A DNA stretch of 35,627 bases. Origin: a virus. The DNA is taken from IMG/VR virus record IMGVR_UViG_3300022939_001307, positions 1 to 35,627 of that record. One strand, given 5' to 3'. The notes under the pieces are model-generated. The model had not been told where the DNA came from and did no database searches. It was given only the letters and a program-made list of their open reading frames with translations. Shown piece after piece: positions 14,433 through 35,627 of this stretch (position 1 is its first letter; every line of letters starts with the position of its first letter). The translations under genes were made by a program, and so were the position numbers.

Positions 14433-15926
14433 ATGAATCCTTTTTACACACTTATTCCTGACGACAAACCTGCACTTAGTGATATCAATGAAACTATCAC
14501 ATACAGAGAATTAATTAGTCGTGCAATTGAAAAACGTGACTGGCTTGTAAGCATGGGCTACAAGCATGGACACAGAATTGGCATTGCAGGCAAAAACGAT
14601 GTCAGAACGTATGTTTATTATCTTGCAGGACAAATGTTAAGTAGTGTAGTTGGTTTGCGTAGTGATTTTAAAGGCAATGACTGGAATTATAAAATACCTG
14701 CAGCAAATATTAATGTAGTACTTGAGCTAGGTGAAAACGACGACGATCTAAAAGTGCATCATCAAAATTTTGATAAGTCAACAGAGTGTTACAAAGAATA
14801 TGCTGTTTATTTTAGTAGCGGTACAACCAGTAACAAATGGGGATCTCCACAAGCAACACCAATGGTATGGGACGTAGATGACTTTAATTGGGGCATGGGT
14901 GCAGATATTGTAAACTACAACAGAGAAGTTATTAATCCTTACTATAGAGAAAGTGATGAAAACATTCAAATACAGCCTATGCACGCCTGGATGGGTTGGG
15001 GGCAAGAGTGTACAACATTAAATCTCATTAAGCATGGACATACAATTCTTGTAGGCGACATTACTGAATGGGACGAACTTGTAGAACGTTTTAAACCAAC
15101 ATGGACTGTAATGTTTCCAATGATTGCATTTAAACTTATGGATAAGAATAAAGGAGGCGGGCACCCAATCAAATGTGTTGAAATGTCAGGTGCCCGTGTT
15201 ACTGAAAAACAAGTTGAGCAAATGCGTGAGTTTTTTAACTGCGGATACTTTGTAAGCCACTATGGTACAAGCCAAAGTGGAAACTTTATGCACAACTCAG
15301 GAGACGGAAGTAATTTGCAAAACATTGGAAAGCCATGTGAAGGATTTATTCATGCATATGGTAAAGATTTTGTACGTATTGGAAAACACGGAACACTTGA
15401 AGTTAAATGGCATGGCAGTCCGCCTCACTACACAAATGAAGAAGGATATTACGATACCAATGATGTAGTTGAATTAGGTGAAGACGGTAATTATATTTTC
15501 AAAGGTCGTGCAAATGAAATGCTTATGATACGTGGTGGAAGTAAATTACAAGCACCAAGTATTGAAGACAGAATACTAGAAAACTTTGGAATAAAAGAAG
15601 CATATGTATTTCCAATTCCAGAAAGTGATGTCAATATTGAAACTGATCAAGCAGACACTCGTGTAAAAATAACACGTGAAGAAATTGATAGCGGTATATT
15701 ATATCAATTACCAGGTCTGTTATATTATGGTGACATGACAACTGAAGAAATGCATGAATGGTGCGAAGAAAATTTACCATTGTATCATCGTCCAGTACAC
15801 ATTTACAGATTAAAAGATACTCTTAGCTCATTTACAGAGTCTGAAGTTTGGAAAGTTAGAAGATTAGCAATGCACGACACACTAACTGAAAACTATCAGG
15901 AGTGGTGTGATGACTGGCAACTATAA
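14433..15926 (+). CDS. ANL-superfamily acyl-adenylate-forming enzyme
   Basis: 497 residues from ATG 14433, two bases after the thyA stop. Adenylates a carboxylate with ATP. Motifs: phosphate loop SSGTTSNKWGSPQ at 128-140, A5-like HYGTSQSG at 276-283 (the usual TE is TS here), YYDTND at 339-344 with hinge GRANEMLMIRGG at 358-369, and a C-terminal WKVRR holding the likely catalytic Lys near 475. Both N- and C-terminal subdomains are present, so it can probably do adenylation and perhaps transfer to CoA or a carrier. No carrier protein is visible nearby. Substrate unknown; relatively distant from textbook family members. Confidence 0.82.
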   Translation: MNPFYTLIPDDKPALSDINETITYRELISRAIEKRDWLVSMGYKHGHRIGIAGKNDVRTYVYYLAGQMLSSVVGLRSDFKGNDWNYKIPAANINVVLELGENDDDLKVHHQNFDKSTECYKEYAVYFSSGTTSNKWGSPQATPMVWDVDDFNWGMGADIVNYNREVINPYYRESDENIQIQPMHAWMGWGQECTTLNLIKHGHTILVGDITEWDELVERFKPTWTVMFPMIAFKLMDKNKGGGHPIKCVEMSGARVTEKQVEQMREFFNCGYFVSHYGTSQSGNFMHNSGDGSNLQNIGKPCEGFIHAYGKDFVRIGKHGTLEVKWHGSPPHYTNEEGYYDTNDVVELGEDGNYIFKGRANEMLMIRGGSKLQAPSIEDRILENFGIKEAYVFPIPESDVNIETDQADTRVKITREEIDSGILYQLPGLLYYGDMTTEEMHEWCEENLPLYHRPVHIYRLKDTLSSFTESEVWKVRRLAMHDTLTENYQEWCDDWQL

Positions 15927-16701
15927 TTTACTTTTTATAAATTGTATACAGGGTGCTAACGGTTTTAGACTGGGCCGTGTGCTATCTTGCTATGAGCATG
16001 TATATTGGTATGCACATACCGACAACGGTATGACACCCTGGGAATTTACAACTGATCCTGAATCCACAGTATATGAAGCAAATTTTGCTGAATGCCATTT
16101 TGATAGACTACTAGAAAATGATCACATGGGAGATCGTGTCTATATACCTATGGTTGGTAGCAAGATTGAAAAATATTGGGACAATGATGAATGGATTAAC
16201 CGCTGGTACGAAATCATGTCTAATAGAATTATCCCTGAACCAGACAAGTACTTACCATTTATTGTACATGATAGCCCGAGCTATTTAAGAAAAATATTTC
16301 CCAATTGTTATATTTTTAACTTGATTAGTGATCCAGTAGTCGCCACAAAATGGCACTTTCAAACTAGTTCAAACTATAGAATTGATTACACATTTGAAGG
16401 ACAACGTCCTGACTATAAAAGTAAATGGGTACAACAAATAGAAGAAATGTTAGCAATAAATCCAAAAGCAACACAAAAAGATTTGTGGATGCATACTAAT
16501 AACGGAACAGAACAAGAATATGAAAATTATGTTTATCGTATTCAAGAAGAAAATAATCAACGTAATTTAGCAGAAGCGTCAGCTGCTGACATAACTACAA
16601 CATGGGCAGACTTTGACATACTAGCACTCCAAACTGTTTTTGGTAAAATACATGAAAACTACAAACTGTTGATCCCAGACAGTTTAAAAGTTAAAATATA
16701 A
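15910..16701 (+). CDS. unknown protein, possibly sulfotransferase-like
   Basis: 263 residues from ATG 15910, overlapping the ligase gene by 17 bases. The N-terminus has a hydrophobic strand then QGANGFRLGR at 14-23 (LLFINCIQGANGFRLGRVLS), which resembles the phosphosulfate-binding turn of sulfotransferases. A later NLISDPVVATKWH recalls their second motif. The resemblance is weak and there is no proof of fold. If true, a PAPS supply from the APS-kinase-like gene would be relevant. Otherwise unassigned. The aromatic N-terminal half looks like a conserved viral family. Confidence 0.55.
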   Translation: MTGNYNLLFINCIQGANGFRLGRVLSCYEHVYWYAHTDNGMTPWEFTTDPESTVYEANFAECHFDRLLENDHMGDRVYIPMVGSKIEKYWDNDEWINRWYEIMSNRIIPEPDKYLPFIVHDSPSYLRKIFPNCYIFNLISDPVVATKWHFQTSSNYRIDYTFEGQRPDYKSKWVQQIEEMLAINPKATQKDLWMHTNNGTEQEYENYVYRIQEENNQRNLAEASAADITTTWADFDILALQTVFGKIHENYKLLIPDSLKVKI

Positions 16702-16705
16702 ATAC
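16698..16705 (+). promoter_or_regulatory. late-promoter-like TATAAATAC element
   Basis: TATAAATACGTACATA directly precedes ATG 16713; the octamer ATAAATAC is 16698-16705. No Shine-Dalgarno lies between. The expected start of transcription would fall about three bases before the ATG, i.e. an almost leaderless mRNA. Confidence 0.5.
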
Positions 16706-16712
16706 GTACATA

Positions 16713-17216
16713 ATGATAAAATTAGATTTACAATATGATATCGATAAGATAAGAAATGAACTTGAAATTTTAGTCCAAGAATATATCTATTATTATGATC
16801 TAATAGGACAGGTATTAATTCAGTCTCCAAACGGAGACAATTGGACAGATATTAGAGCACCGTATAAAATACATCCTGATCTCAGAGAATGGGATTTTAA
16901 AAAACCAAATACACCAGACGATTGGGAAATGACACGTTTTATGTTAGAAACTGGTGTGTGTAGAACACGTATATTAAAACTTGAACCAAGACAATGTTAT
17001 ACATGGCATCATGATGTTGGACACAGAATACACTTGGCAGTTAATACACACGAGTCTTGTTTTTTTATTGAAGATGGAAAAATGCTACACATTCCATCAG
17101 ATGGTTATCCATATAAAGTAGATGTAAACAACTATCATACTGCACTTAATGGATCTAATGATGTTGTAAGGACACACTTAGTAGGAGTTATTAGAGATGA
17201 AGCAATGGAATGTTGA
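16713..17216 (+). CDS. 2OG-Fe(II) oxygenase-like (Asp/Asn hydroxylase type)
   Basis: 167 residues. The jelly-roll core has WHHDVGHRIHLAVNT with HxD at 99-101, then a strand CFFIEDGKMLHIP, distal His142 in NNYHTALN and Arg153 in VVRTHLVG. This is the iron and 2-oxoglutarate arrangement of the aspartyl/asparaginyl beta-hydroxylase-like group. It likely hydroxylates a peptide or small molecule using O2 and 2-oxoglutarate. It is followed, with overlap, by the split radical SAM pair. Confidence 0.75.
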   Translation: MIKLDLQYDIDKIRNELEILVQEYIYYYDLIGQVLIQSPNGDNWTDIRAPYKIHPDLREWDFKKPNTPDDWEMTRFMLETGVCRTRILKLEPRQCYTWHHDVGHRIHLAVNTHESCFFIEDGKMLHIPSDGYPYKVDVNNYHTALNGSNDVVRTHLVGVIRDEAMEC

Positions 17217-17472
17217 AATAAATCCTAAATGTGAACACGGTAATGAGCTTTTTGTTACAGCAAAAGGAAAGGTACGTCCTTGTTTTTGGATCAGTGAACG
17301 TAGCGAAGAAAAAGAAATATTTGATAGTGATGACAATTTTAACATTAACAAAACACCATTAAATGAAATAGTAGACGTACATTTAAAAAAATTTACAGAT
17401 GATGTACGAAAAGATCCATACAATGCACTAAAGGTTTGTTTTTATGAATGCTCCGTCAAAAATAAAGATTGA
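17197..17472 (+). CDS. stand-alone SPASM-like cysteine module
   Basis: 91 residues. Cys12 (KCEHG), Cys29 in RPCF, then Cys81 and Cys85 in VCFYEC. This pattern, an N-terminal Cys, a xxPCF pair and a C-terminal CxxxC, is the same as the N-terminal Fe-S-binding part of the 32527-33702 radical SAM protein, where it precedes the core. Here it is a separate gene that overlaps the core-encoding gene by 29 bases, so the two products probably form one enzyme. It starts inside the oxygenase gene after a GTAGGAG. Function inferred. Confidence 0.65.
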   Translation: MKQWNVEINPKCEHGNELFVTAKGKVRPCFWISERSEEKEIFDSDDNFNINKTPLNEIVDVHLKKFTDDVRKDPYNALKVCFYECSVKNKD

Positions 17473-18052
17473 ACTAACATCTAAATGCACATGTGCTTGT
17501 TTTAAATGTCCACGTACAATACTAAAAGGATTGTATGATGAACTAGAAATATCAGTCGACAACGTTAAAAAAGTTCTCGACATGAACCCTAAAAGAATAT
17601 ATTTTATGGGTAACTTGGGAGATCCAATATATCATACAAGGTTTCCTGAGATCATAAGTATGACAAACGAATACAATATACCGTTTAATGTACATACTGT
17701 TGGATCTGGTTACGATGAGAATTGGTGGCGTGATGTATATAATGCATATGACAATGATCAAAGTAACTGGGTGTTTACACTAGATGGTCTTAAATCCACA
17801 GCAGGTAAATATAGAGTCGGATTAGTATACGATGAAACATTTAATGCTATGCGTTTAGGTGCTAAATTAGGTAAAAATATAATGTGGCAGTTTATTGTAC
17901 TTAGACATAATCAACACGATATTACAGAGGCTAAAAGATTAGCAGATGAACACGGAATTAACTTACGTATTGACTTCAATGAACGTTGGGACGGGAACGA
18001 CGATCCGTGGAAGCCAACAATATCTAAAAAAGATATTGACATAGTACAATAG
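17444..18052 (+). CDS. radical SAM core protein, short
   Basis: 202 residues. SAM-cluster motif C15-x3-C19-x2-C22 within SKCTCACFKCPR, followed by a GNLGDPIYH segment replacing the usual GGEP, and later TLDGLKS and QFIVLRHNQHDITEAKRLA. Only about five strands of the barrel seem present and there is no auxiliary-cluster tail. That supports partnership with the preceding Cys module. Neighbouring 2OG oxygenase and SAM synthetase suggest a modification pathway. Substrate unknown. Confidence 0.8.
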   Translation: MNAPSKIKIELTSKCTCACFKCPRTILKGLYDELEISVDNVKKVLDMNPKRIYFMGNLGDPIYHTRFPEIISMTNEYNIPFNVHTVGSGYDENWWRDVYNAYDNDQSNWVFTLDGLKSTAGKYRVGLVYDETFNAMRLGAKLGKNIMWQFIVLRHNQHDITEAKRLADEHGINLRIDFNERWDGNDDPWKPTISKKDIDIVQ

Positions 18053-18063
18053 AGTGCTATAAT
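18036..18063 (+). promoter_or_regulatory. near-consensus sigma70 promoter
   Basis: TTGACA at 18036-18041, 16-base spacer, TATAAT at 18058-18063: both hexamers are perfect consensus. It lies 32 bases before ATG 18096 with AAGGAAAAAAC as ribosome-binding region and overlaps the end of the radical SAM gene. Suggests strong early expression of the transporter genes by host polymerase. Confidence 0.8.
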
Positions 18064-18095
18064 GAAATCATGTAAATTTACATAAAGGAAAAAAC

Positions 18096-19091
18096 ATGAA
18101 GAAAACTTTGACTACTTTTGCTGCATTAGCAGCTACATTAGGTTTCGTCAACACAGCTAGCGCAAGCGAGTGTGGCGACATTACAATGGCAGGTCTCGGT
18201 TGGGGATCTGCAAGTATCTTGGGAGAAATTGACAAACTAGTACTTGAAGAAGGTATGGGTTGTTCAGTAACAATGATCCCAGGCGGCACAGTTCCTTCGT
18301 TTACATCAATGGTTGAGCAAAGCCAACCAGATGTAATGGGCGAGCTATGGCCAAATGCAGCAGGTATTGATTTGTATAATGCTGCACTAGCTGATGGTCG
18401 GATGACAGAATCAGCAGAGCAATCACCAATTGGTGGTGTTGCAGAAGGTTGGTATATCCTACCAAACATTTTGGAAGAGCACCCAGAACTAACTACACTA
18501 GAAGCAGTTCTTGCTCGTCCGGATCTTTTTCCACATCCAGATGATCCTAGCAAGGGAGGTTTTGTAACATGTCCTCCAGGCTCAGGTTGTCAGATCTCAA
18601 ATGCTAACTTGTTTGTTGCAAATGACATGGAAGCAAAAGGTTGGAAAATGATCGAACCAGGTTCATATGCAGCAGAAGATGCAACAATCACTCGTGCATA
18701 TGATCGTGGAGAAGCATGGTTTGGTTACTATAGTGCACCAACTGCGTTTATTGGTAAGTACGACCTACGTCAGCTAGACTGGGGAGTAGACTTTGCAGGA
18801 CAAGAAAACTGGAATTGTATTACAAAGCCAGATTGTCCAAATCCACAACCGTCAAGCTGGACATCATCTTTTGTACGTACTGTATTCACAGATGAGTTTG
18901 CAGCAAGTGGTAGTGCAGATGTGCAAGGTTATTTTGCTGCACGTGTTGTGCCGGGTCCAGTAATGAACGCATTGTTGTTGTACATGGACGATAATCAAGC
19001 AGCACCAGATGAAGTAGCAGAATACTTTGTAGAAAACTACGACATTTGGAAAGATTGGGTTTCAGCAGACGTAGCAGCAAAACTACAGTAA
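18096..19091 (+). CDS. glycine-betaine/choline-type ABC substrate-binding protein (ProX/OpuAC)
   Basis: 331 residues. Signal peptide with KK, a hydrophobic core and an ASA site after residue 23, giving a mature periplasmic protein. The body has the OpuAC/ProX order: LGWGSASILGEIDKLVLEEG, VTMIPGGTVPSFTSMVEQ, a DVMGELWPNAAG pocket segment, GGVAEGWYILP, and a C-terminal VVPGPVMNALLLYMDDN and AEYFVENYDIW. Binds a quaternary amine or similar osmolyte for import. Strong sigma70 promoter upstream; the permease gene starts three bases after its stop. Rare for a phage; probably acquired from a marine host. Ligand specificity is inferred. Confidence 0.88.
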   Translation: MKKTLTTFAALAATLGFVNTASASECGDITMAGLGWGSASILGEIDKLVLEEGMGCSVTMIPGGTVPSFTSMVEQSQPDVMGELWPNAAGIDLYNAALADGRMTESAEQSPIGGVAEGWYILPNILEEHPELTTLEAVLARPDLFPHPDDPSKGGFVTCPPGSGCQISNANLFVANDMEAKGWKMIEPGSYAAEDATITRAYDRGEAWFGYYSAPTAFIGKYDLRQLDWGVDFAGQENWNCITKPDCPNPQPSSWTSSFVRTVFTDEFAASGSADVQGYFAARVVPGPVMNALLLYMDDNQAAPDEVAEYFVENYDIWKDWVSADVAAKLQ

Positions 19092-19094
19092 CCC

Positions 19095-19946
19095 ATGATT
19101 GACCTCTTCGAGTTTCCAGAGCTTAGTCGAAGCGTCATACGTACTATTAAAAAGTCGATTGACAATTCGTTTAGAGAATTCTCTCGTAGCTATGGAGACT
19201 CGATTGAGGTTTTCTTTTACCCGCTAAAGGTTCTTATGAACTGGGTAGAGTTTGCACTCGTTAGTGCACCATGGCCCTTAGCAATGTTTATACTTGCTGG
19301 GGCTGTTTTTTATCTTACTAGAAACAAAAAGCTCTGTGCATGGACTGTAGTGTACATGATTTTTATTGGGGCTTTTGGTTTGTGGGAAGATACAATGTAC
19401 ACACTTAGCCTTGTGCTTGTGTCTGCACTTTTAAGTGTAGTAATAGGTATACCGATTGGTATTTGGATGTCTAGAAAAGATCGTGTACAAAACTTTATAA
19501 ATCCAATACTAGATGTTATGCAAACTATTCCTATCTTTGTTTATTTGATTCCAGTCGTTATGCTACTAGGATTAGGTAAAATACCAGGCGTAATTGCAAT
19601 GACTATCTATGCTGTTCCTCCAATTATACGTTTAACTAACTTAGGCTTACGTCAAGTAGGTATAGGTATGATAGAAGCAGCACTAAGTATGGGCATGAAG
19701 AAGTGGCAAATATTATGGACAATTGAGTTACCGTTGTCAATGAAAAGTATACTTACAGGCACTAACCAAACTATTATGATGGCTATATCTATGGTTGTTA
19801 TTGCTAGTATGATTGGTGTACAAGGATTGGGTGTAAGTGTATTACAAGCTGTACAAAACCAATATATAGGCAGTGGCATTATTAGTGGTACTGCAATTGT
19901 AGGACTTGCAATTATATTAGATAGAGTGGTACAAAATGCAAAATAA
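19095..19946 (+). CDS. betaine-type ABC permease (ProW/OpuAB-like)
   Basis: 283 residues with multiple membrane segments from about residue 60 and the coupling loop EAALSMGMKKWQILWTIELP (194-213), which contacts the ATPase. The rest matches ProW-like permeases (ILDVMQTIPIFVYLIP, VPPIIRLTNLG, GVQGLGVSVLQAVQ). No ATPase (ProV-like) gene follows or occurs in the window, so it may use a host ATPase. The 3' end runs into the start of a methyltransferase gene with an 11-base overlap; the C-terminus stops soon after the last helix. Confidence 0.88.
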   Translation: MIDLFEFPELSRSVIRTIKKSIDNSFREFSRSYGDSIEVFFYPLKVLMNWVEFALVSAPWPLAMFILAGAVFYLTRNKKLCAWTVVYMIFIGAFGLWEDTMYTLSLVLVSALLSVVIGIPIGIWMSRKDRVQNFINPILDVMQTIPIFVYLIPVVMLLGLGKIPGVIAMTIYAVPPIIRLTNLGLRQVGIGMIEAALSMGMKKWQILWTIELPLSMKSILTGTNQTIMMAISMVVIASMIGVQGLGVSVLQAVQNQYIGSGIISGTAIVGLAIILDRVVQNAK

Positions 19947-20565
19947 AACATTTGATTTGGTACGTCGATTGATAACGTACAAGAACAAAAGAACATTTGG
20001 TACGTCGATTGATAACATACAAGAACAAAAGAACATTTACGAAAACTTAGATTTTACAAACGAAGTGGTTTATAAGCAAGGATGGATTGGTTATTCAAAA
20101 ACAGCAGCCTATGTAATTTACAATTTTGAAAAACATATATCAGTAGCGGACATTGGATGTGGTACAGGATTCACTGGAGCTCTTTTAAAACTATCTGGAT
20201 TTGAATCAGTTGACGGTTATGATATTGTAGAAAAATATATTGAAACATCAAAAAAATATTATAATAAAACAGCGTATTGTAATATATTAGAGTCTACTTT
20301 GCCACGCAAATACGATGTAATAATGGCAAGTGGTTTATTTAACTTTTATTGTTTAAGTGCAAAGCCTGCAAAAAATATATACAATAGTTTAAACGACAAT
20401 GGAATTTTTATCATGGTGAATCCAGCAGATCCATCTTATTTAAAAGATCACGGATGGCTAGATCAAAGTTATTTCTCAACTTTATCATCAAGTGATCCGT
20501 TTATAGGACGTAAAACAGATAACACAACCTATAGGTATGTGACAAACATAATGAAAAAGATGTAA
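19936..20565 (+). CDS. SAM-dependent methyltransferase
   Basis: 209 residues. Class I motif ADIGCGTGF at 71-79, then GYDIVEKYI and VIMASGLFNF, typical of small-molecule methyltransferases. The N-terminal ~35 residues derive from a 40-base tandem duplication whose second copy is read in a different frame, so the natural N-terminus may be later. Overlaps the permease gene by 11 bases. Substrate unknown; sits beside the aldo/keto reductase and the tailoring cluster. Confidence 0.8.
   Translation: MQNKTFDLVRRLITYKNKRTFGTSIDNIQEQKNIYENLDFTNEVVYKQGWIGYSKTAAYVIYNFEKHISVADIGCGTGFTGALLKLSGFESVDGYDIVEKYIETSKKYYNKTAYCNILESTLPRKYDVIMASGLFNFYCLSAKPAKNIYNSLNDNGIFIMVNPADPSYLKDHGWLDQSYFSTLSSSDPFIGRKTDNTTYRYVTNIMKKM
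19956..20035 (+). repeat. 40-bp tandem duplication
   Basis: Bases 19956-19995 and 19996-20035 are direct copies (TTTGGTACGTCGATTGATAA, then a GTACAAGAACAAAAGAACA tail) with a single difference, G at 19977 versus A in the second copy. A third start (TTTA) follows. Forty is not a multiple of three, so the duplicate shifts the reading frame inside the methyltransferase N-terminus. Confidence 0.9.
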
Positions 20566-20566
20566 A

Positions 20567-21517
20567 ATGCAAAATAAAATCTGTGTTGGAACAATGCTTT
20601 GGGGATCAAGAACTGATGCACATGAAGCACACAATATTATTAATACTGCACTAGACAACGGTATTGACTTTTTTGATACTGCACAGAAGTATCCTACTTT
20701 TCCGTACAGCGAATGGACACATGGTGTAAGTGAACTAATACTAGGAGATTGGATACGTGCTAACGGTAAAAAATTACGTGTTAGTACTAAGTTAAAAAGT
20801 CCAATAATACCAGAAGACATATCAGAATATGTAGACAATAGTTTGCTACGTTTAGGTATAGATTGTATTGATTATTGTCATTTGCATTGGCCTAGCAGAC
20901 CACATTATCATTTTAGAAAAGTTTGGATGTATGATCCTACTGAAACAGACACGCAAGAAACACTTGATCATTTTGATCAATGTAGTGAAGTTTTAAATAA
21001 TTTACAGTGTCAAGGAAAGATAAAACACATATGTATGAGCAATGAAACTGCTTGGGGTATTACACAGTGGGCGCAACGTCTAAATTTAGATTATGTGCAG
21101 CAAGAATATAGTTTGCTACATAGACTATTTGAATTAGATGTAGCAGAAGCATGTCATCACAATAACATAAAACTACTTGCTTGGTCTCCACTTGCTGGTG
21201 GATTACTAACAGGCAAGTATACAGATACAATTACTCCAGAAAACAGTAGAAGATCATACGGTGGACTAGGACCACGTGATAATGTAAATGTCTGGGAACC
21301 TATTAGAAGATACAAAAACATAGCACAAGATGCTAGTATAACACTAACACAAATGAGTATTGCCTGGGTAATGAGTAGTCCATTATTAGAAGCTATAATA
21401 CTAGGCGTAACTAACGCTCAACAATTAGAAGAAAATATTTCAACAATTGTAAAATTAGATGAAGAAACACTGTTTAGAATAAGACATGTTTATCAAGACC
21501 ATCCGTTACCATTTTAA
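20567..21517 (+). CDS. aldo/keto reductase
   Basis: 316 residues, TIM-barrel NAD(P)H oxidoreductase. Catalytic tetrad in place: Asp37 and Tyr42 in DFFDTAQKYP, Lys in VSTKLK (about 75), and His107 in YCHLHWP. NADP-site segment SMAWVM-like is seen as SIAWVMSSP, with ILGVTNAQQLEEN near the end. It reduces an aldehyde or keto group; similar enzymes occur in nucleotide-sugar and O-antigen pathways. The start shares AAATGCAAAATAAAA with the start of the methyltransferase gene. Ends tail-to-tail with the minus-strand cluster. Confidence 0.88.
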   Translation: MQNKICVGTMLWGSRTDAHEAHNIINTALDNGIDFFDTAQKYPTFPYSEWTHGVSELILGDWIRANGKKLRVSTKLKSPIIPEDISEYVDNSLLRLGIDCIDYCHLHWPSRPHYHFRKVWMYDPTETDTQETLDHFDQCSEVLNNLQCQGKIKHICMSNETAWGITQWAQRLNLDYVQQEYSLLHRLFELDVAEACHHNNIKLLAWSPLAGGLLTGKYTDTITPENSRRSYGGLGPRDNVNVWEPIRRYKNIAQDASITLTQMSIAWVMSSPLLEAIILGVTNAQQLEENISTIVKLDEETLFRIRHVYQDHPLPF

Positions 21518-21930
21518 GCAACAGTAATTGCAAACCTTACCCAATTGATATTGTGCACAGTATGCCATTGGTCTACTCGTAATTTGTGCCAGCGACTAAG
21601 TTCTAATACTACATCGTCTATTTTGTCACCAAATTCATCAGTATACCAAGCAGTACTCACATCGTTACCTCCAGTATCAATTAAAAAGTTTATAGCGGTA
21701 TCTCTGCCTCTGTCAACATGACATGGAATGTCTTTTATTAGTGTTTGGTATCTAAACTTTGTTCTGTCAGGAAATATATTTTGTAACCAATCACGTAGTT
21801 CTGGCTGCACTTCATGTATAGTATAATTTTTAGTATGCCCACCAAAAATGTTTTCAAGTTGTAAAACTTTTTCAAGTGGAAGAATTAATTCTTGCGGTGG
21901 GCTAGGCAAATCTAAGTATTCATAGTACAT
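21514..21930 (-). CDS. 2OG-Fe(II) oxygenase-like protein, 138 aa
   Basis: ATG 21930 is chosen: AGAGGA lies upstream, and the longer frame from 22032 would start inside the neighbouring gene. HxD is CHVDRGR (71-73), distal His123 in DQWHTVHN and Arg132 in WVRFAI, on the usual double-stranded beta-helix strands. Likely an Asp-hydroxylase-type dioxygenase. It overlaps the 3' end of the plus-strand aldo/keto reductase gene by four bases and overlaps its upstream oxygenase-like neighbour by 11. Confidence 0.7.
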   Translation of the reverse strand: MYYEYLDLPSPPQELILPLEKVLQLENIFGGHTKNYTIHEVQPELRDWLQNIFPDRTKFRYQTLIKDIPCHVDRGRDTAINFLIDTGGNDVSTAWYTDEFGDKIDDVVLELSRWHKLRVDQWHTVHNINWVRFAITVA

Positions 21931-22609
21931 GTTTAAATAAATCCTCTTGGCTGTCTGTATGTAGTGCAATAAAAAATTGATATCCAATTTCATCATCAAC
22001 TGTGCGAGCAGCATGTATAATACTAGTATCAATTACATATAATCTGCCTGGCTCGACTAATTCAGGAGGATAATCAACAATATCAGGATCCATACTAGGA
22101 ACCATGGCAGGCAATTCACATCTTCTTTGCTCTCTGTCAAATTGTATACGTGCCAAATCTGGATTATTTGTTCCCCATAATCGTAATATTGGACTGGGAA
22201 ACCAAGTATCCACATGTGGAAAGAAAGCAGTTTCTTGATCCCAACGTAATATACAACTGCGAAGCATATATTGTTTTAAATCGTTTAACGGATCAAAACA
22301 AGATTCGTCTAGCACGGGTGTGGGCACAGTAAAGTCTCTGTCGTATACAGGATCTTCAATTAGATCTCCATTGGGCCTATTCCATTCATCCAGTGGGTAA
22401 CATGTTATTTCTGGATTATTGTACAGGCTACCATTTTCGTTTACTAGTGGCAATCCATAACGTGGCATGTGCTGTTTTTTTCTACCCCAACTTCTAAATG
22501 CATAATGATATTTGGTCATAGTTTCTTCAAACTTGTCTACATCAATTATAATGTCTGTGGGTTGCATTACTACTGGATGTAGTGCTGCATATTCATTTAA
22601 TCCAAGCAT
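21920..22609 (-). CDS. 2OG-Fe(II) oxygenase-like protein, 229 aa
   Basis: HVD at 132-134 in FFPHVDTWFPSP, distal His199 in DTSIIHAARTVDDE, followed by a strand GYQFFIALH. These fit a 2-oxoglutarate dioxygenase metal site, though the 2OG-binding Arg is uncertain (Arg202 is a candidate). The N-terminal half is proline-rich and unrecognised. It starts inside the end of the mini-adenylation gene by 17 bases, suggesting joint translation. Confidence 0.65.
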   Translation of the reverse strand: MLGLNEYAALHPVVMQPTDIIIDVDKFEETMTKYHYAFRSWGRKKQHMPRYGLPLVNENGSLYNNPEITCYPLDEWNRPNGDLIEDPVYDRDFTVPTPVLDESCFDPLNDLKQYMLRSCILRWDQETAFFPHVDTWFPSPILRLWGTNNPDLARIQFDREQRRCELPAMVPSMDPDIVDYPPELVEPGRLYVIDTSIIHAARTVDDEIGYQFFIALHTDSQEDLFKHVL

Positions 22610-28095: not shown

Positions 28096-29033
28096 TGTGC
28101 TATACCAACGTTATCTACGCCTAACATTCTCCCTCGAGCGGCTTCACTATCGTTACTCCAAACTAGTACTTCAGGATCGTCTATTAGGAAATCACAGTTC
28201 TCACAATAGCTAGGCCAATCTCCCATTTCATGATCTTTGCGAAGTTTATTGTATGCATCGCCATAATATATGTCTTCTAAACTCGTTGTTTCTGCATGTC
28301 CAAGTACACTTAAACTTTCATTTGGTGCACCCATAGTTTGACAACACGGTGTAACAGCACCTTGTAAGCCACCATTACCGCCTGCACGTATTGTAATTTC
28401 TTGTGCAAAGGGTCTACCACAACTACGTTTACGGTTACCATGACGTGTATATTCTGGGTTCCAGTTTCCACTCCAATTATGCATTTTCCATATATAACCA
28501 GTTACTCCGCAATAGTCAATAAAGTTTTTTCTATATTGCTCTATTTCGTGTTCTGTATTATCTGGATCTATAATTAAATGATAGCTTGATATTTCAACGT
28601 TGTCAGGAACATACTCTCGCATTTGTTTTGCATACTCACGTATTTCTTCAAACCTATCCTGGCTCATCCACTTTTTATATAACTCTGGTGTGTACCCTAT
28701 ACAACTAAAACGATACAGTGCAAGTCCAGCATCAACACAGTCTCGCATATAATCGCCATGCATACCACTGCCGTTACTATATATAAAAGGACGAAACCCT
28801 CGTCGTGCAACTGCTTCTATATAACGTGGAAGTTCAGGATCTAGCGTTGGTTCACCGCTGCCTTCTAAGTTGACAACTGGTGTGCCAGTTAATTGATCTA
28901 ATATATTTTCAAATAAGTCAAACGGCATACGTCTTAAAAAACCAGTCTCTCTACCTGGACTAGTTTGAGGACACATTTTACATGTGTAATTACATCCACC
29001 AAATACTTCTATTACTGCTCTTTTAAATTCCAT
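28092..29033 (-). CDS. radical SAM/SPASM enzyme
   Basis: 313 residues from ATG 29033, chosen as the first Met before FKRAVIEVFGGCNYTCKMC; an upstream in-frame start is weaker. SAM-cluster Cys 14, 18 and 21. EGSGEPTLDP replaces GGEP. The C-terminal part has SCGRPF, VTPCCQTM and YCENCDF, a full SPASM-like Cys set, so this is a classical arrangement in contrast to the N-terminal type nearby. Similar proteins act in peptide or sugar modification. Overlaps the SDR gene by 11 bases. Confidence 0.85.
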   Translation of the reverse strand: MEFKRAVIEVFGGCNYTCKMCPQTSPGRETGFLRRMPFDLFENILDQLTGTPVVNLEGSGEPTLDPELPRYIEAVARRGFRPFIYSNGSGMHGDYMRDCVDAGLALYRFSCIGYTPELYKKWMSQDRFEEIREYAKQMREYVPDNVEISSYHLIIDPDNTEHEIEQYRKNFIDYCGVTGYIWKMHNWSGNWNPEYTRHGNRKRSCGRPFAQEITIRAGGNGGLQGAVTPCCQTMGAPNESLSVLGHAETTSLEDIYYGDAYNKLRKDHEMGDWPSYCENCDFLIDDPEVLVWSNDSEAARGRMLGVDNVGIAQ

Positions 29034-29580
29034 ACCAATACTTGTCCTGCATGGGATCAATACTTATTTCATTTATATTAATGTGTGCTGGTTGATCAAC
29101 AACCCATTTAATATAATGTGCTGCGGCATCAATATCCATACAACGCCTGTCAGGGTGCTTGTACTGATTATTACTTAGTGTACCAAAACTTATATAACTA
29201 ATTTTTGGCATATCACTCCACACTCCACCAATGGCAAGTGTATTACTATAATCACGTAACGCTTTCTTTTCTGCGTTATATAACCAGGCTTTGCCGTTCT
29301 TGACTCTATCGGTGGTACTACCAATTACCACTATATGTGCTAAGTGCCGAGCATCTTTACAAGCCTTGTATACTGCATCTAGTAGCACAGTTTGTTGAAA
29401 CTGCCACAGTGCACAATTAACTATAATTGTGTCATGATTAATACTTTCTTCAGCAAATGCAGTGCGTCCAGACTTTTCTACCAAGTCATGTCCAGTACTT
29501 CTACTCATAAAAACGGCATCTGGATATATTTTTTGTAATGCTTGTGCTAGCCCATAGTCTGGGTTACCCGATATTAGCAT
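29023..29580 (-). CDS. short-chain dehydrogenase/reductase-like protein
   Basis: 185 residues. N-terminal ISGNPDYGLAQALQ is a modified nucleotide-binding turn (TGxxxGxG-like). A central strand HIVVIGSTTD holds the Ser, and YNAEK at 101-105 gives the Tyr-x3-Lys pair. The IGGVWSDMP region follows as in SDRs. Shorter than typical (~250), so the cofactor end may be trimmed. Probably oxidises or reduces a sugar or keto intermediate. Starts inside the radical SAM gene upstream by 17 bases. Confidence 0.7.
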   Translation of the reverse strand: MLISGNPDYGLAQALQKIYPDAVFMSRSTGHDLVEKSGRTAFAEESINHDTIIVNCALWQFQQTVLLDAVYKACKDARHLAHIVVIGSTTDRVKNGKAWLYNAEKKALRDYSNTLAIGGVWSDMPKISYISFGTLSNNQYKHPDRRCMDIDAAAHYIKWVVDQPAHININEISIDPMQDKYWYGI

Positions 29581-30688
29581 TGATTAACTCCCATATTTCT
29601 GGATTAACATCACCGAATTTAATTTTTTGATAATCATCAAGTATTATAATACTTTTATACAATTTGTCAAACTCTGATTCAATATTAATGTCAGCATTTA
29701 TTATACGGTCAAGTGACGTTTTTCCTGTCAAATATTGTTGCCTAGTTTCTATTGGCAACTGATACATGCTAAGATATCGGGGGTCAGTTAATTCACTGAA
29801 ACTAATACGTATATTGTTAGTGTCACAAAACTCCATTAAACTGTGTAGTCGATTAAAGTTTAATATACTTACAGTGCAACTAGCAAGACAATGAAAGCCG
29901 TCCTGTTTAAACCTGCGTACATTATCTGCTATTTGTTTCCAAGGCACTCCCCAACGTATGCAGTCTGCTAAATCATCAGCAGCATCTAAACTAAAAGCAA
30001 TAGTTGTCCATTTGTTAAATTTTTTTAATTTTTCAATAATTTTTTTATCCGGATAAACACTACCATTTGTTGTTATATTTAAAAACAACTTTTCTTTATC
30101 GATTACCTCACGGTCCAGTTTATCTAAAAACCATTCAAAGTTTTTAGCATAAAATGGCTCGCCGCCTTCTAATTTAACATGACTTGCACGACTTAAATCT
30201 GTATTTTCAAATACTTGACGAAATCTATCCTGATATGTACGGTAATCTGTATTATTATCTATTTTAATATCGTTATCTTGAAATTGTTCTATAACTGTTT
30301 TTGCACTTCCCCATTTGCTACTAGCACTAGGATTACATATACGACACATCATATTACAAGTATAGTCTAGTGATATTTCCAAATCTTGTATATATGTTGG
30401 TTTAAACAAGTCGTGTTTGCCAAACATTTTGTTAGTAAACTGTCTACGACTTTGTAGTCCTGCTTGTTCACTGCGTTCACAACTTTTACATCCGTGTGGA
30501 AATTTACCATGATTTAAATCATTTTTAATTGAGCTGTATGGCTCTTTATAGTGCATACCATTTAGGCTGTCAACATCAAATATTGTTGGCAATAACTGAC
30601 TATTAGCAAACTTACAACAAGGACGTATTCCTCCTCGGGCATCAACTATACTTACACCTGTTTGACTGTGTACACAAAATTTAGTCAT
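29564..30688 (-). CDS. radical SAM protein with N-terminal SPASM/twitch-like domain
   Basis: 374 residues. The N-terminal ~75 residues carry C5, C24-C25 and C67-x2-C70, an auxiliary-cluster pattern that usually lies after the core. The SAM-cluster motif C111-x3-C115-x2-C118 (YTCNMMCRIC) and GGEP at 175-178 follow. This is the twitch-type radical SAM layout. The spacing C5 to C24-C25 is identical in the gene just upstream, implying duplication. Substrate unknown; peptides are typical for SPASM/twitch enzymes. Confidence 0.85.
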   Translation of the reverse strand: MTKFCVHSQTGVSIVDARGGIRPCCKFANSQLLPTIFDVDSLNGMHYKEPYSSIKNDLNHGKFPHGCKSCERSEQAGLQSRRQFTNKMFGKHDLFKPTYIQDLEISLDYTCNMMCRICNPSASSKWGSAKTVIEQFQDNDIKIDNNTDYRTYQDRFRQVFENTDLSRASHVKLEGGEPFYAKNFEWFLDKLDREVIDKEKLFLNITTNGSVYPDKKIIEKLKKFNKWTTIAFSLDAADDLADCIRWGVPWKQIADNVRRFKQDGFHCLASCTVSILNFNRLHSLMEFCDTNNIRISFSELTDPRYLSMYQLPIETRQQYLTGKTSLDRIINADINIESEFDKLYKSIIILDDYQKIKFGDVNPEIWELINANIG

Positions 30689-31809
30689 AATAAATTACTT
30701 AAATCCTTTTTCTTTACACGTTGTTTTTGTAGAATAAAGTCTGCTAAACTGTCAACTGGTTCACCAGTTCCAATTCTATCGTGCATTGTTTGTAAAAAAT
30801 GTTTAAATTTTTCTCTATTTTTAACAGACGTTTGCCAGTCGAAACTTTTAAAAACTTTTTGTGCAGCAACAATATAATGACGGTCATGATCAGGCAAGTA
30901 TTGTATATCCATTGCACGTGGACGTTTTATATAATTACCAACCCAACCAAATGTTTTATTGGGTGCATGTTCGTTCATAGTTTGATGCACCCAATTAATA
31001 TATCTTGCAAAGCCACGCACACTAAGTGCATTTACTGTAGCTGCCAATGTAATATCATTTATACGTGGGTGTTCTGCATATCTAATAAAATTATTTTGAA
31101 ACCTAGTCCAATCTAAACCATAGCGAACCAATTCAGCATCTGTACCCACAGTTTCATTACTAAACGCAACACCCCAGGTCATATCGCTATTTTCTATTAT
31201 TTTAAATAATCTGTCCATAAGAGCTGTTGTTGTGTTACCATTGGTGCACAACTCTATACGTACATCTAAATCAAGTGTACTAATATATTCTACCATTGGA
31301 GCAAACCGCTTACTTGCTGTTGGCTCGCCTCCTAAAAAATTAAAAACAACACTACCTTTAAGGGTTGCTAACCATTGCTTGAATGTATCAAAGTCATGCT
31401 CTGTACCAGCGTCACGTATGGGCTTGCCTTCTTCTTGTGCTATTTGGCTACTAGCATCTGCTGCACAGTATAGACAGCTCTGGTCGCAAATAGTATCTAG
31501 AGTCACATCTATATAACGAACATCACTAACTGTGGGATGCAGATTGTCAAAACTATCATATTTGTTCATCCAACTACGATAACTGTTACGCCCTGCACGT
31601 TCATCTGCCCAGCAATATTCACAGTCAGAATGTTGTTCTCCTGCCAGTGATGCTTTTCTTCTTTGTTGGATTTGTGGACTGTTATCAAAGTAATCTGTTG
31701 TTAATGTGTCCGGCATTTTATAGTCGGCACTCATACAGCAATTTCTGATTAATCTATTTGCAAAATCTACGTTTACATCAGTCCAGCTTTTTGAACATGC
31801 TGTTTTCAT
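30685..31809 (-). CDS. radical SAM protein with N-terminal SPASM/twitch-like domain
   Basis: 374 residues, the same length as its downstream neighbour. C5, C24-C25 and C63-x2-C66 precede the SAM motif C108-x3-C112-x2-C115 (ICDQSCLYC) and GGEP at 160-163. A Lys-rich C-terminus ends the protein. The start follows ATAAGTAC by four bases with no Shine-Dalgarno. ATGA overlap couples it to the next gene. Likely a paralogue of the 29564 and 32527 genes acting on related sites; the substrate is unknown. Confidence 0.85.
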   Translation of the reverse strand: MKTACSKSWTDVNVDFANRLIRNCCMSADYKMPDTLTTDYFDNSPQIQQRRKASLAGEQHSDCEYCWADERAGRNSYRSWMNKYDSFDNLHPTVSDVRYIDVTLDTICDQSCLYCAADASSQIAQEEGKPIRDAGTEHDFDTFKQWLATLKGSVVFNFLGGEPTASKRFAPMVEYISTLDLDVRIELCTNGNTTTALMDRLFKIIENSDMTWGVAFSNETVGTDAELVRYGLDWTRFQNNFIRYAEHPRINDITLAATVNALSVRGFARYINWVHQTMNEHAPNKTFGWVGNYIKRPRAMDIQYLPDHDRHYIVAAQKVFKSFDWQTSVKNREKFKHFLQTMHDRIGTGEPVDSLADFILQKQRVKKKDLSNLL

Positions 31810-31821: not shown

Positions 31822-31829
31822 GTCAAAAT

Positions 31830-31855: not shown

Positions 31856-31860
31856 TAAAT

Positions 31861-32493
31861 TTATGTACGTGTTACTACAATATCTTCTTTTTTACGGGTT
31901 GGGAACATATAACCAGTTTTTTCATGTAACCGACGATTACGTGATGGGTCTTTGAATCCAATACCTTGAATCATTGCTGGTTTATTTTCTAAACCTAGTA
32001 GCTCTTGAATCTTTTTAGTTTTAAAACACTGGCAGCAACCTGTGCTATAACCTAACATTGCTGCAGTTAAGTTTACATAACCACTCGCAATACCAATTGC
32101 TGTTGCACGGTCTCTTTCAAACACAATCATATCTGCTTCATCTTTGTGTTCCCAACTTTTGCGACTTTTTTCGCTTAAAGTTTCTACTTCAAGTTGTTCA
32201 AATACAAAAATTGCATTTGCTAGTGTTTGACTGTTAGTGCTTTCTACCATATTACCATCGGCATCATATGTATGTGTGCCAGTGGCTAGTTCGTGTACAG
32301 CTTCAATTGTGTCTCTGTCTGTAATTACATGCAATTTATAGAACGCAATGTTTTGTTTGCTTGGGCAATTTGTTGCAGCATGTACTAGAATATCTAGATC
32401 ACCTTCAGGAATTTGTCTACTAAGGTCAAAATTTCTCTGACAGTGTTGGCTGCGAATAACTGCTTTTTTAATATCAACTGTTGATAGTGTCAT
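31861..32493 (-). CDS. nitroreductase-family flavoprotein
   Basis: 210 residues. N-terminal VIRSQHCQRNFDLSRQIPEG (a diverged R-x-S-x-R.F FMN site), AATNCPSKQNIAFYKLHVI, and a later GIASGYVNLTAAMLGYSTGC and GIGFKDPSRNRR all follow the nitroreductase fold, which uses FMN and NAD(P)H. It may serve a reductive or dehydrogenating step of the cluster or a detoxifying role. It has its own late-promoter-like element, a GGAG ribosome-binding site and a terminator, so it is likely expressed as a single gene. Confidence 0.85.
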   Translation of the reverse strand: MTLSTVDIKKAVIRSQHCQRNFDLSRQIPEGDLDILVHAATNCPSKQNIAFYKLHVITDRDTIEAVHELATGTHTYDADGNMVESTNSQTLANAIFVFEQLEVETLSEKSRKSWEHKDEADMIVFERDRATAIGIASGYVNLTAAMLGYSTGCCQCFKTKKIQELLGLENKPAMIQGIGFKDPSRNRRLHEKTGYMFPTRKKEDIVVTRT

Positions 32494-32514
32494 ATCAGTC
32501 TCCTTGTGATATAA

Positions 32515-32522
32515 CTATTTAT
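32515..32522 (-). promoter_or_regulatory. late-promoter-like ATAAATAG element
   Basis: Minus-strand ATAAATAG, then TTATATCACAAGGAGACTGAT and ATG 32493. Normal leader and Shine-Dalgarno. It overlaps the intergenic gap after the 32527 radical SAM gene stop. Confidence 0.55.
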
Positions 32523-32526
32523 GCTA

Positions 32527-33702
32527 TCATATAATTATTTTATCGTTGTAAACAAATTCTGCAATTCTTTCAGGTGCTACACGATAATATAGTAAATCTT
32601 GCCAGCGAACAATATGTTTAAATGTTTTAGTATCTGCATATGCCGGCGTTTGCATATACTTTATTATAGGATTGTCAGCTGACATTGTTTGATTTAATCG
32701 ATCCTTGACACGCTGATCTAAATTTGCTATATCTAATCCTGCAGGATAGTGAACAAATGTTGCATCAGTGTGTGCAGGAACACCCGTTGCTTTTATTTTA
32801 TCTACTAGTTCATGTAAATCATTAAATATTTCATCTGCATAAAATGCATGATAACTTGTACTTGTGCAAACTAGATATACACTGCGTATATTTTTGCATT
32901 GCTTTAAAACTGTAAATAAATTTTCTACAGTTTGATCATAGTCTCCGTTTTGTCTAAAATAATTAAATATCTCTCCGGTTCCATCCATACTAACAGTTAG
33001 TTCCACACCAGCAAAATGTTTCCATAATTCTGCTAAATCAAATGATTTAAAACGTATCATACTCATATTAGTATTATAACCAATAGTTAAGTTTTTTGAT
33101 AATCCTTCATTAATTAATCGTTCTAAAAAACGATAATGCTTTAAATGATATAATGGCTCGCCGCCGCTAAATGTTATGTGACGTACAGTGGGCAATATAT
33201 TGTTTATAATATCTTCAACTTGTTCGTCATTAACAGTTTGTATAGGACTATCTGCTTTTCCTATATGATCAAATCCATGTTTAAGAAGCATTTCGTGTAA
33301 TTCTTGATTTTTAGATCCCAATAATTCAAACTGACTATTACTATCAGACATGCAATGTCTACACAAATAATTACACGTGCGACTAAATTTTAATTCTAAA
33401 TCAACAATACCTGGCACTGTAGTTTTGGTAAAATCACATCCCCAATCATGTCTAAGACTTTTTTCTCTGTAACTAGTTACACCATTGGCTTCTTTGTATG
33501 CACAATCTTCACAGCCAGCTGGAAACTCGCCACGCTGTAGTGTAGCTCTAACTTCTTGCATCGACGAGCAGTTGACTGCCTCACTGGGCAATGTATCACT
33601 CATACTGGCTATAGGCTGTTTTTTAATTTTATATCTAAAGCAAGGCGCATATTCACCTTGAAGGAAGTCTAAATGCCCCCATGCATAATTACATTTTAGC
33701 AT
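32527..33702 (-). CDS. radical SAM protein with N-terminal SPASM/twitch-like domain
   Basis: 391 residues. N-terminal C4, APCF (C21) and C64-x2-C67 before the SAM motif C110-x3-C114-x2-C117 (RTCNYLCRHC) and GGEP at 180-183. The PCF pair matches the split Cys module at 17197-17472 more closely than the CC pair of the other two paralogues. Overlaps the end of the B12-type radical SAM gene by 14 bases. A peptide or protein target is typical for this class but not shown. Confidence 0.86.
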   Translation of the reverse strand: MLKCNYAWGHLDFLQGEYAPCFRYKIKKQPIASMSDTLPSEAVNCSSMQEVRATLQRGEFPAGCEDCAYKEANGVTSYREKSLRHDWGCDFTKTTVPGIVDLELKFSRTCNYLCRHCMSDSNSQFELLGSKNQELHEMLLKHGFDHIGKADSPIQTVNDEQVEDIINNILPTVRHITFSGGEPLYHLKHYRFLERLINEGLSKNLTIGYNTNMSMIRFKSFDLAELWKHFAGVELTVSMDGTGEIFNYFRQNGDYDQTVENLFTVLKQCKNIRSVYLVCTSTSYHAFYADEIFNDLHELVDKIKATGVPAHTDATFVHYPAGLDIANLDQRVKDRLNQTMSADNPIIKYMQTPAYADTKTFKHIVRWQDLLYYRVAPERIAEFVYNDKIII

Positions 33703-35098
33703 TTTCGTATGTCCTTAATTCTTTTCTCTGACTCCAGAACCATTGTTCTTTGTTTTCCATTTCTTTAATTACGTCATTAAATTCTTGATATCGTCTCATA
33801 CGTTCTTCAGTTGTGTTATCACCATATGCCCAGTCTCTAGCATTATTATAATATGTTAGATCCTTTTCAATCATGTCGTGTATTTGACCATCTAGTAACA
33901 TGGGCGTACCACTAAATGACATTATTTTTTCACCAAGGTCATTGTAAACAATTCCTTGTTCGTATAATTGACGTAGTACTTTTATTTGGTGGTTATGATC
34001 TTCAAGTGTTTCGGTAGGATAACCTATAATCATTAATATACTACTAGGTATGCTATATTTTTTTAATAAGTTAAAAGTATTCCACATAGCACTGTCAGTG
34101 TGCTTTTTGCCCATGTGATATCTAACACTTTCTTTAAAGTGTTCTATACCGATTTCCAAATCTATGCAACCACTTTTTTTAGCCAGTTCAAAGTCAACGT
34201 CAAGCGTACTTATTTCACTCCTGACTATCCACTGACTTGTCCATTTAACATCTACATTATCATTGACGAGTGTATTAACTAAACCTCTATATGCTCGCAT
34301 ATTTCCGTTAATAAGACTGTCAGTAAATTTAACATTTGTAATTTTATAGCGTTCTTGAATATATTTTATTTCTTTTGCAACATGTCTGCCGCTTCTATTT
34401 GTATAGTTGGGCCATATATCTCTAACATTACAAAAAGTACATCGTTTAACACAACCTCTACTAGCAGTCACATATGCAATACGTTTTTCTGGATCAGCTA
34501 TTTCATATCTATCCCAGTCAATGTCATCATAATTTGGAAACGGCAAGTCATCCATGTTCATAACTTGATGTTGCATATTCTGACGTTGACCGCTGAGTAT
34601 TTGTATTAGTGCATACTCTCCATCACCTATAACATAATGGTCACAAAGTCCTGTGTCAAGTAATTTTTGTATATTATACCTGTCAATTGTAGCACCGCCC
34701 CAGATTATTTTAACAGTATTAATGTATTCTCGTATTTTTTTTGCTAGTGTAATAGCACAACTTCGACTATATTGACTTAACAAACTTAAACCTACATACT
34801 TGGGCTCAAGCTCAATGATTTGTTGTATCCAACGATCAAAAATTTCAGTATTATCATTGACCCAGGCTTCCCATTCTGGGTTTTCCGTATCCCATTCTCT
34901 TAAAAAAATATCATCATTATCATGATATAAATCCCAGTGTTGATTTTTTTCTTTAAGATATTCAAATAAGTCAATATTTAAGTCTAATACGTGTGCTGTA
35001 TATTTGTTGTCTTCGCAAACCTGCTTGAGAACGGCAGGACCCACTGTTGGAGCATCTGGTTCTATTTTTGGTATAATGCAAAAGACAACATCTGTCAT
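33689..35098 (-). CDS. B12-binding-domain-type radical SAM enzyme
   Basis: 469 residues. The N-terminal ~170 residues look like a cobalamin-binding Rossmann domain (VGLSLLSQYSRSCAITLAKK, IIWGGATIDR, IGDGEYALIQILSG) although the usual DxHxxG is absent. The SAM motif C216-x3-C220-x2-C223 (RGCVKRCTFC) follows, with a downstream barrel (IEIGIEHFKESVR, MIIGYPTET). Class B enzymes methylate unactivated carbons or perform related chemistry; without DxHxxG, B12 may bind base-off or not at all. Shares four bases with the next gene upstream. Confidence 0.85.
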   Translation of the reverse strand: MTDVVFCIIPKIEPDAPTVGPAVLKQVCEDNKYTAHVLDLNIDLFEYLKEKNQHWDLYHDNDDIFLREWDTENPEWEAWVNDNTEIFDRWIQQIIELEPKYVGLSLLSQYSRSCAITLAKKIREYINTVKIIWGGATIDRYNIQKLLDTGLCDHYVIGDGEYALIQILSGQRQNMQHQVMNMDDLPFPNYDDIDWDRYEIADPEKRIAYVTASRGCVKRCTFCNVRDIWPNYTNRSGRHVAKEIKYIQERYKITNVKFTDSLINGNMRAYRGLVNTLVNDNVDVKWTSQWIVRSEISTLDVDFELAKKSGCIDLEIGIEHFKESVRYHMGKKHTDSAMWNTFNLLKKYSIPSSILMIIGYPTETLEDHNHQIKVLRQLYEQGIVYNDLGEKIMSFSGTPMLLDGQIHDMIEKDLTYYNNARDWAYGDNTTEERMRRYQEFNDVIKEMENKEQWFWSQRKELRTYENAKM

Positions 35099-35627
35099 AC
35101 AAGCAGTTCCTCGAGTGTGCCCTCGAAGTTAATTAACAGACCCATTTTCCAAGGTCCAATTAGTTTTCCTGTACAGTGTAAGTTATTACTATTGAACACT
35201 ACCATATTACCAGGACGCCATTCATACGCTGTGCCAGTTAAACCGTGAAATAATTCCGGAGTGTGATTGTCAAACTCCAAGTAATCATGATAAAATTGTT
35301 CGTCGATGGGTTCTTCTGTACAGTCATATACACGTGGATCATTATAAGGACTTAGTGGTACTTTCTTATTACGGTCAAAATTATAATTATTTAAATCTTT
35401 TCTGTCACCATACCATGTTTGACCAAAGCCATTATCTGTCCACTGGTCAAATACAATAAAATGCTGTTGTGGCTCCTCAACTTCCAAGTGTATAGGAATG
35501 TTTACATTAATCATTTGTGTTGGTTCATCGCTATCAACATGTAAACTATATAAGTTAGTATGCTTGTATATGTTTCCGCCGCTGCCACGATTTGTACGAA
35601 AGTATTGACTTAGTATTGGATCTAAAA
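35095..35627 (-). CDS. 2OG-Fe(II) oxygenase-like protein, partial
   Basis: The frame stays open past ATG 35514 to the window edge, so the gene is partial and probably begins outside. Upstream codons read SLHVDSDEPTQ, supplying the HxD metal motif; starting at 35514 would remove it. A later PGNMVVFNSNNLHCTGKLIG gives the distal His, and KMGLLINF the 2OG-side strand with Lys in place of Arg. At least 176 residues are visible. Likely a prolyl-hydroxylase-like dioxygenase, ATGA-coupled to the B12-type radical SAM gene. Confidence 0.72.
   Translation of the reverse strand, partial: LDPILSQYFRTNRGSGGNIYKHTNLYSLHVDSDEPTQMINVNIPIHLEVEEPQQHFIVFDQWTDNGFGQTWYGDRKDLNNYNFDRNKKVPLSPYNDPRVYDCTEEPIDEQFYHDYLEFDNHTPELFHGLTGTAYEWRPGNMVVFNSNNLHCTGKLIGPWKMGLLINFEGTLEELLV

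Follow-up and report, generated by a model that had tools for sequence, protein, structure and literature searches.

The stretch analysed here, hereafter the window, is the linear IMG/VR virus record IMGVR_UViG_3300022939_001307 (positions 1–35627; 35,627 bases), the right part of which, from position 14433 onward, holds a dense island of enzyme genes dominated by radical S-adenosylmethionine (rSAM) proteins. The left part carries nucleotide and takeover genes (MetK-like, MoxR-type ATPase, VWA protein, DHFR-like, kinase and thymidylate synthase) and closes with ThyA (13565–14431, plus strand; PF00303, 1.7e-103), the final core gene ahead of the island. The island is 98.6% coding with a widest gap of 137 bp, and its genes form long same-strand runs with 4-bp overlaps, those from 14433 to 21517 lying on the plus strand and those from 21514 to the window end on the minus strand.

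The initial annotation counted seven rSAM cores, and all seven open reading frames (ORFs) carry a CxxxCxxC motif, six of them above the Pfam cut-off for PF04055. The seventh, g17444 (17444–18052), stays below that threshold (16.9 bits) yet matches a phage rSAM family in PHROG (phrog_21308, 3.9e-13) and overlaps its partner, the stand-alone SPASM domain gene g17197 (17197–17472; PF13186, 9.6e-4). This rSAM enzyme (17197–18052) is split in two genes with the SPASM gene leading; because a similar split pair in the related contig G021 (62563–63499) has the reverse order, a simple frameshift does not account for it. Three proteins, g29564 (29564–30688, 197 bits), g30685 (30685–31809, 175 bits) and g32527 (32527–33702, 225 bits), exceed the curated cut-off of the N-twitch rSAM family NF033640 (170 bits), and C7, C25, C88 and C91 are invariant in the N-twitch alignment that includes them (A1). 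The best conserved gene of the island, the anchor rSAM g24232 (24232–25374; PF04055, 9e-16), has an AlphaFold model (pLDDT 82) with a generic rSAM/SPASM fold, which against the PDB returned generic rSAM matches with no substrate hint. The remaining two are an rSAM/SPASM protein (28092–29060; PF04055, 9.9e-14; PF13186, 1e-6) and the B12-binding, methyltransferase-type rSAM g33689 (33689–35098; PF02310 and PF04055), whose top NCBIfam match is a PhpK-type P-methyltransferase (TIGR04479, 3.5e-27) at 94.9 bits against a cut-off of 600.

The KdsB-like CMP-sugar synthetase g26864 (26864–27538) is supported by profile matches to PF02348 (3.8e-19) and 1gq9 (4.6e-18), and resembles KdsB (CMP-Kdo synthetase) along its whole length, including the nucleotide and QGD motifs. 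It differs in that the Asp of the 'DTPEDL' motif, which we take to be the second metal-binding Asp of KdsB, is Asn across its whole phage family (alignment A5), and it scores 79.8 bits against the KdsB equivalog cut-off of 155 (TIGR00466). Pfam matches also back the aldo/keto reductase (20567–21517; PF00248, 7.7e-56), a class I methyltransferase (19936–20565; PF13847, 8e-9) and a nitroreductase (31861–32493; PF00881, 4.6e-12). Both ANL adenylate-forming proteins match PF00501: g14433 (14433–15926; 5.3e-15) along its full length, with a 73% identical gene in the same place in L123 that is consistent with the start at 14433, and the short g22593 (22593–23291; 4.6e-15) through the C-terminal part of the model only (profile positions 170–374). 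The latter is 67–72% identical to proteins of L012, L015, L016 and L018, and its partner, a conserved protein with no assigned fold (23429–23959), is 57–72% identical in five phages.

Five 2-oxoglutarate (2OG) oxygenases had been proposed, none of which reaches E 0.01 in a Pfam scan. The aspartyl/asparaginyl hydroxylase-type g16713 (16713–17216; relatives in 36 of 87 loci) is supported through homologues that match PF05118, down to 5.6e-13 (L044), and g27535 (27535–28095) weakly, through PF13640 (4.1e-6) in a 29%-identical relative. The other three carry an HxD...H motif read by eye, and their homologues gave no 2OG family-level profile match: g21514 (21514–21930, start inferred from homologues; 48–58% identity in L012, L018 and L123), g21920 (21920–22609; 42–58% identity in several loci) and g35095 (35095–35627, truncated by the window end and complete in L002 at 88% identity). 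Likewise, the small SDR-like (short-chain dehydrogenase/reductase) protein g29023 (29023–29580; in 43 of 87 loci, identity to 82%) and the SGNH-hydrolase-like g26109 (26109–26867; GDS motif by eye; 83% identity in L001) show the motif but have no Pfam match. The block also contains a protein with no family match (25379–26131; 87% identity in L001) and the 91-aa g23967 (23967–24242), for which no relative was found among the viral loci compared. The initial list, which largely holds in these terms and is partly confirmed, had passed over g17197, a binding protein and a permease (g18096 and g19095, below) and the tentative sulfotransferase-like g15907 (15907–16701). The model of the latter (AlphaFold, pLDDT 68.6) has sulfotransferases as its top PDB folds (6bdq, E 1.9e-3, and 3rnl), both weak, and a profile search against the PDB gave no sequence-profile match.

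Directly behind the split SPASM/rSAM pair lie g18096 (18096–19091; PF04069, OpuAC/ProX, 1.2e-35), a periplasmic binding protein of DmpX/ProX type with an altered pocket, and g19095 (19095–19946; PF00528, 1e-25; TIGR03416, 6.7e-73, under the equivalog cut-off), an ABC permease of choline/glycine betaine type (ProW-like). Each of the eight viral loci that encode a ProX relative has the SPASM and rSAM genes immediately ahead of it, with SPASM homologues at 64–69% identity, and three of the eight have ProW and the aldo/keto reductase 3′ of ProX. The closest solved structure to g18096 is RnDmpX (7yle, 4e-47), the dimethylsulfoniopropionate (DMSP)-binding protein of the DMSP transporter DmpXWV (PMC10030565). 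The phage ProX shares its fold family and W35, T64, W84, E113 and Y200, whereas the two domain-II tryptophans are replaced in all nine phage proteins (W152 by Ser or Ala, W202 by Ser); the five bacterial relatives inspected all keep Trp at the two positions. The DmpX cage of four tryptophans (W35, W84, W152 and W202) with Y200 is therefore incomplete in the phage protein. DMSP binding by g18096 was considered and rejected on this ground, and the loss of W152 and W202 from every phage copy suggests that the ligand has changed relative to DmpX. Unlike DmpXWV, the phage genes keep a fixed order behind the SPASM/rSAM pair, and a motif scan of the viral loci compared found no ABC ATPase, so that a host ATPase would be required.

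We scanned viral contigs with g24232 and mapped all window genes onto the loci of its relatives. The scan confirmed relatives in 126 viral contigs, the best 80 of which show 71–92% identity. Across the mapped loci the anchor rSAM is 70–92% identical and thus far better conserved than core genes, of which the VWA protein is an example at about 43–59%. Most of the minus-strand block recurs in the same order in L001/L011, L002 and L018. L123, a locus of a 103-kb contig that came from a separate ProX scan, matches the window in gene order from MoxR across the strand switch as far as the anchor rSAM, sharing MoxR to ThyA, the ANL, 2OG, SPASM, rSAM, ProX, ProW and aldo/keto reductase genes, the switch itself, the C-terminal ANL gene and the anchor. 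Because L123 covers both the junction and the strand switch, an assembly chimera is excluded. Synteny across many phages had been named at the outset as a check on the island; it is found in several related contigs, and an order kept across several contigs is not due to chance. Exact-peptide scans of viral contigs with g33689 and g14391 found none, though relatives exist, such scans being insensitive.

Within a long accessory island, the right part of the window forms the end that adjoins the replication genes. The 65.9-kb contig G021 overlaps the window at its right end and runs about 43 kb further to tail-fibre-like ORFs, with a 3,651-aa tail/baseplate-like structural-type gene at the far end of the island; the island is about 60–65 kb long if the window is joined to this near relative. 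The C-terminal motif of the giant gene sits ahead of the island in both G021 and G002, and tail-like genes flank the island in these two contigs, with none bordering it in the window.

The number of radical enzymes in these islands is high. Twenty anchor-bearing contigs hold 1–25 PF04055 domains each, with at least 10 in 19 of them, and N-twitch matches number 19 in G021, 21 in G002 and 25 in G015, some open frames having two rSAM matches. Such long frames with two tandem matches (G021:19420–24334 and G002:102144–106740, at most 1,037 aa between stops) are fused or directly abutting N-twitch genes. A further set of 80 loci, drawn with the conserved N-twitch rSAM in place of the anchor gene, averages 7.8 rSAM-motif ORFs per locus, or 4.2 per 10 kb, and has a recurring core: a 360-aa rSAM (75 of 80), a methyltransferase-like protein (58 of 80), a second N-twitch rSAM and a 354-aa rSAM (49 of 80 each). 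A methyltransferase-like protein (L129:6810–7895 and relatives, as at G021:43055) bears a variable number of N-terminal repeats of ~30 aa ('LRKAV..NL.SIFRLL') and in about eight loci is fused with a protein of DxD type. Clearly multi-pass proteins are scarce: ProW is the one such protein of the window, and six related islands have very few.

A comparison with 50,697 deposited phage records gave no close relative of the window. Related contigs are as long as 382 kb, and in 9 of 20 a T4-type gp23 capsid gene exceeds the PF07068 cut-off (the window fragment itself has none); the closest deposited VWA proteins, at 38–43% identity, belong to jumbo phages. The window is therefore a fragment of a marine phage of the T4 superfamily, probably a jumbo phage. 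Relatives of the binding protein at 45–49% identity occur in marine Rhodobacteraceae and one gammaproteobacterial metagenome-assembled genome, which do not fix the phage host. Outside the island, the MetK-like S-adenosylmethionine synthetase (683–1762, plus strand; phrog_1569, 1.1e-117; MetK identity read from sequence) would supply S-adenosylmethionine and would fit a high demand for it. An APS-kinase-like P-loop kinase (g12734, 12734–13171; 2yvu adenylyl-sulfate kinase, 3.6e-4) overlaps an HxGH nucleotidyltransferase-like ORF (g13137, 13137–13568), both on the plus strand. The family phrog_10255 spans the two as a single 230-aa protein, while they are overlapping ORFs in the window and in L015/L094, and resembling genes occur in other contexts in L007 and L041/L045.

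Deposited phages lack the N-twitch rSAM family almost entirely, and it is rare in Proteobacteria. Relatives of the conserved member occur in at least 545 viral contigs, but the deposited phages yield two weak partial matches only, and no relatives of g24232, g30685 or ProX. Among bacteria, members turned up in 1 of 385 alphaproteobacterial genomes and in 2 of 399 from Pseudomonadota (E up to 1e-40), two samples that overlap partly and together comprise about 780 genomes; as no more than four candidates are scored in any one genome, copy numbers may be too low. All three cellular cases lie inside surface-polysaccharide loci, as judged from gene functions read by eye. The first has four tandem N-twitch copies with rfbC, rfbD and a Wzm/Wzt-type exporter, the second an N-twitch rSAM with a sugar SDR and a GT2 protein, and the third an N-twitch rSAM with SDRs, a GT2 protein, a sugar C-methyltransferase and a B12-type rSAM.

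These contexts bear on what the island may make. The initial annotation had suggested a CMP-activated sugar or a peptide, an interpretation that is partly supported overall: a sugar fits better, and for a peptide the rSAM genes of the window leave no precursor space. A sugar is favoured because cellular N-twitch rSAMs occupy O-antigen and other surface-glycan loci, because a KdsA-like gene directly precedes a relative of the KdsB-like gene in another phage (L006), and because related islands hold sugar-nucleotide enzymes (UDP-glucose dehydrogenase, DegT aminotransferase, GDP-mannose dehydratase, RmlD, SIS and carbamoyltransferase), beside a QueC-like ATP-PPase and tail-fibre families. The best reading, to which we give an even chance, is a host-recognition-type island that tailors a glycan-like moiety. 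In such a pathway g26864 would activate an ulosonic-acid-like sugar with CMP; the SPASM/twitch rSAMs, 2OG oxygenases, nitroreductase, aldo/keto reductase and SDR-like enzymes would remodel a sugar or sugar-like ligand by redox chemistry; and the B12-rSAM or the class I methyltransferase would methylate it. ANL-driven acylation, and possibly sulfation by the sulfotransferase-like protein, may follow before attachment, and the product would decorate a receptor-related surface. Membrane proteins are almost lacking, which speaks against a flippase or polymerase made by the phage and rather for a cytosolic acceptor, so that the phage's own tail proteins are a more likely acceptor than host lipopolysaccharide (LPS) reached through a phage-made export system.

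Several observations weigh against glycan tailoring. Its weakest point is that no glycosyltransferase was confidently identified in the window or G021. A by-eye assignment of the DxD-type proteins of G021 to GT8 is unsupported, Pfam GT8 being absent; the best match of these proteins is PF00535 at E 0.09, and a profile search of the family against the PDB gave nothing. A full sugar pathway is not present, KdsA being absent from the window, and none of the rSAM enzymes is closely related to a characterised protein. The cellular contexts seen number three, tail adjacency is seen in two contigs (G021 and G002), and the PhpK-like and ANL genes would also be compatible with small-molecule or phosphonate chemistry.

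The strongest alternative, although we consider it rather unlikely, places the acceptor on the host: host LPS or O-antigen precursors would be changed in the cytoplasm and displayed by the host exporter, thereby excluding superinfecting phages. The host recognition cluster of pelagimyophages has been interpreted in this way (PMC7029224). The same surface-glycan contexts, one with an ABC exporter, and the KdsB-like gene suit this explanation as well, and host exporters could display the product despite the few phage membrane proteins. Nevertheless, that scarcity and the lack of a recognised glycosyltransferase in the window also count against it, as Gtr-type O-antigen conversion systems of other phages rely on membrane proteins. 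A bolder form of the tail-glycan proposal, which we regard as doubtful, is that jumbo marine phages own a largely virus-specific rSAM glycan chemistry, in which as many as two dozen or so twitch/SPASM enzymes in a genome would build and vary a sugar coating the tail fibres, one building block being imported through the phage binding protein, its pocket remodelled for a new ligand.

It is unlikely, too, that the genes form no single pathway and are an accumulation of independent auxiliary genes acting on different host or phage targets. Gene content does vary strongly among phages, with many genes common to few loci only, but a core recurs over 80 loci, the genes show 4-bp overlaps and long co-directional runs, and the SPASM–rSAM–ProX order is fixed.

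Maturation of a ribosomally synthesized and post-translationally modified peptide is improbable, even though SPASM and twitch rSAM enzymes often act on peptides and peptide maturases are among the closest folds of g24232. A conserved ORF of 53–75 aa precedes one 360-aa rSAM in several relatives; it is conserved end to end, unlike a variable core peptide, stands beside one rSAM type only and is not seen in the window. There, 98.6% coding density and gaps of at most 137 bp leave no precursor space, g23967 is the sole small gene, and no precursor gene beside a maturase was found. The 53–75-aa ORF (L090:6166–6354, equivalent to G021:44166–44354; similar in L092, L099, L100, L065 and L051) overlaps the start of the 360-aa rSAM, has the motif MQATNNNI..FNK.AHH.SQ.WYRAVIEWY with whole-length conservation, and is possibly a small subunit. 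Least probable of all is hypermodification of DNA or nucleotides, in which ThyA, the kinase, ANL and rSAM enzymes would build a modified base against restriction: ThyA and the kinase adjoin the island and QueC-like ATP-PPases occur in related ones, but this ThyA resembles the ordinary thymidylate synthases of thousands of phages, the cellular relatives sit in glycan loci and the island is tail-linked in G021.

Since the conserved N-twitch rSAM occurs in at least 545 viral contigs yet is nearly absent from deposited phages and rare in bacteria, ocean viruses hold a large reservoir of radical enzymology. If the island does tailor the surface of virions or of the host, it is relevant to host recognition by marine phages and to their exclusion of rivals. 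The apparently re-specified binding protein offers a concrete, quickly testable way in. We found no literature proposing a product for such islands, in a search that subscription journals and preprints mostly lay beyond.

The initial annotation knew of no such combination in a phage, to which the literature gives a partial answer in two precedents. The 183-kb marine T4-like phage TARA_ERS488813_N000010 is likewise rich in radical enzymes, with 12 rSAM genes, whereas single contigs here hold as many as 25 PF04055 domains; the passage on those genes treats them as part of an Fe–S theme and proposes no island, synteny or product (PMC5332604). The other is the pelagimyophage host recognition cluster, a large hypervariable island of T4-like marine phages that lies next to tail genes, as the present island does in G021 and G002, and that also contains sugar genes and rSAM cassettes (PMC7029224). 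In contrast to that cluster, rSAM enzymes dominate here, the window has no recognised glycosyltransferase, and the near end adjoins the ThyA/DHFR replication genes. Beyond these precedents, the present data add the extent of the island, the number of its rSAM enzymes, the constancy of its core, the scarcity of the family beyond viruses and a binding protein that appears re-specified.

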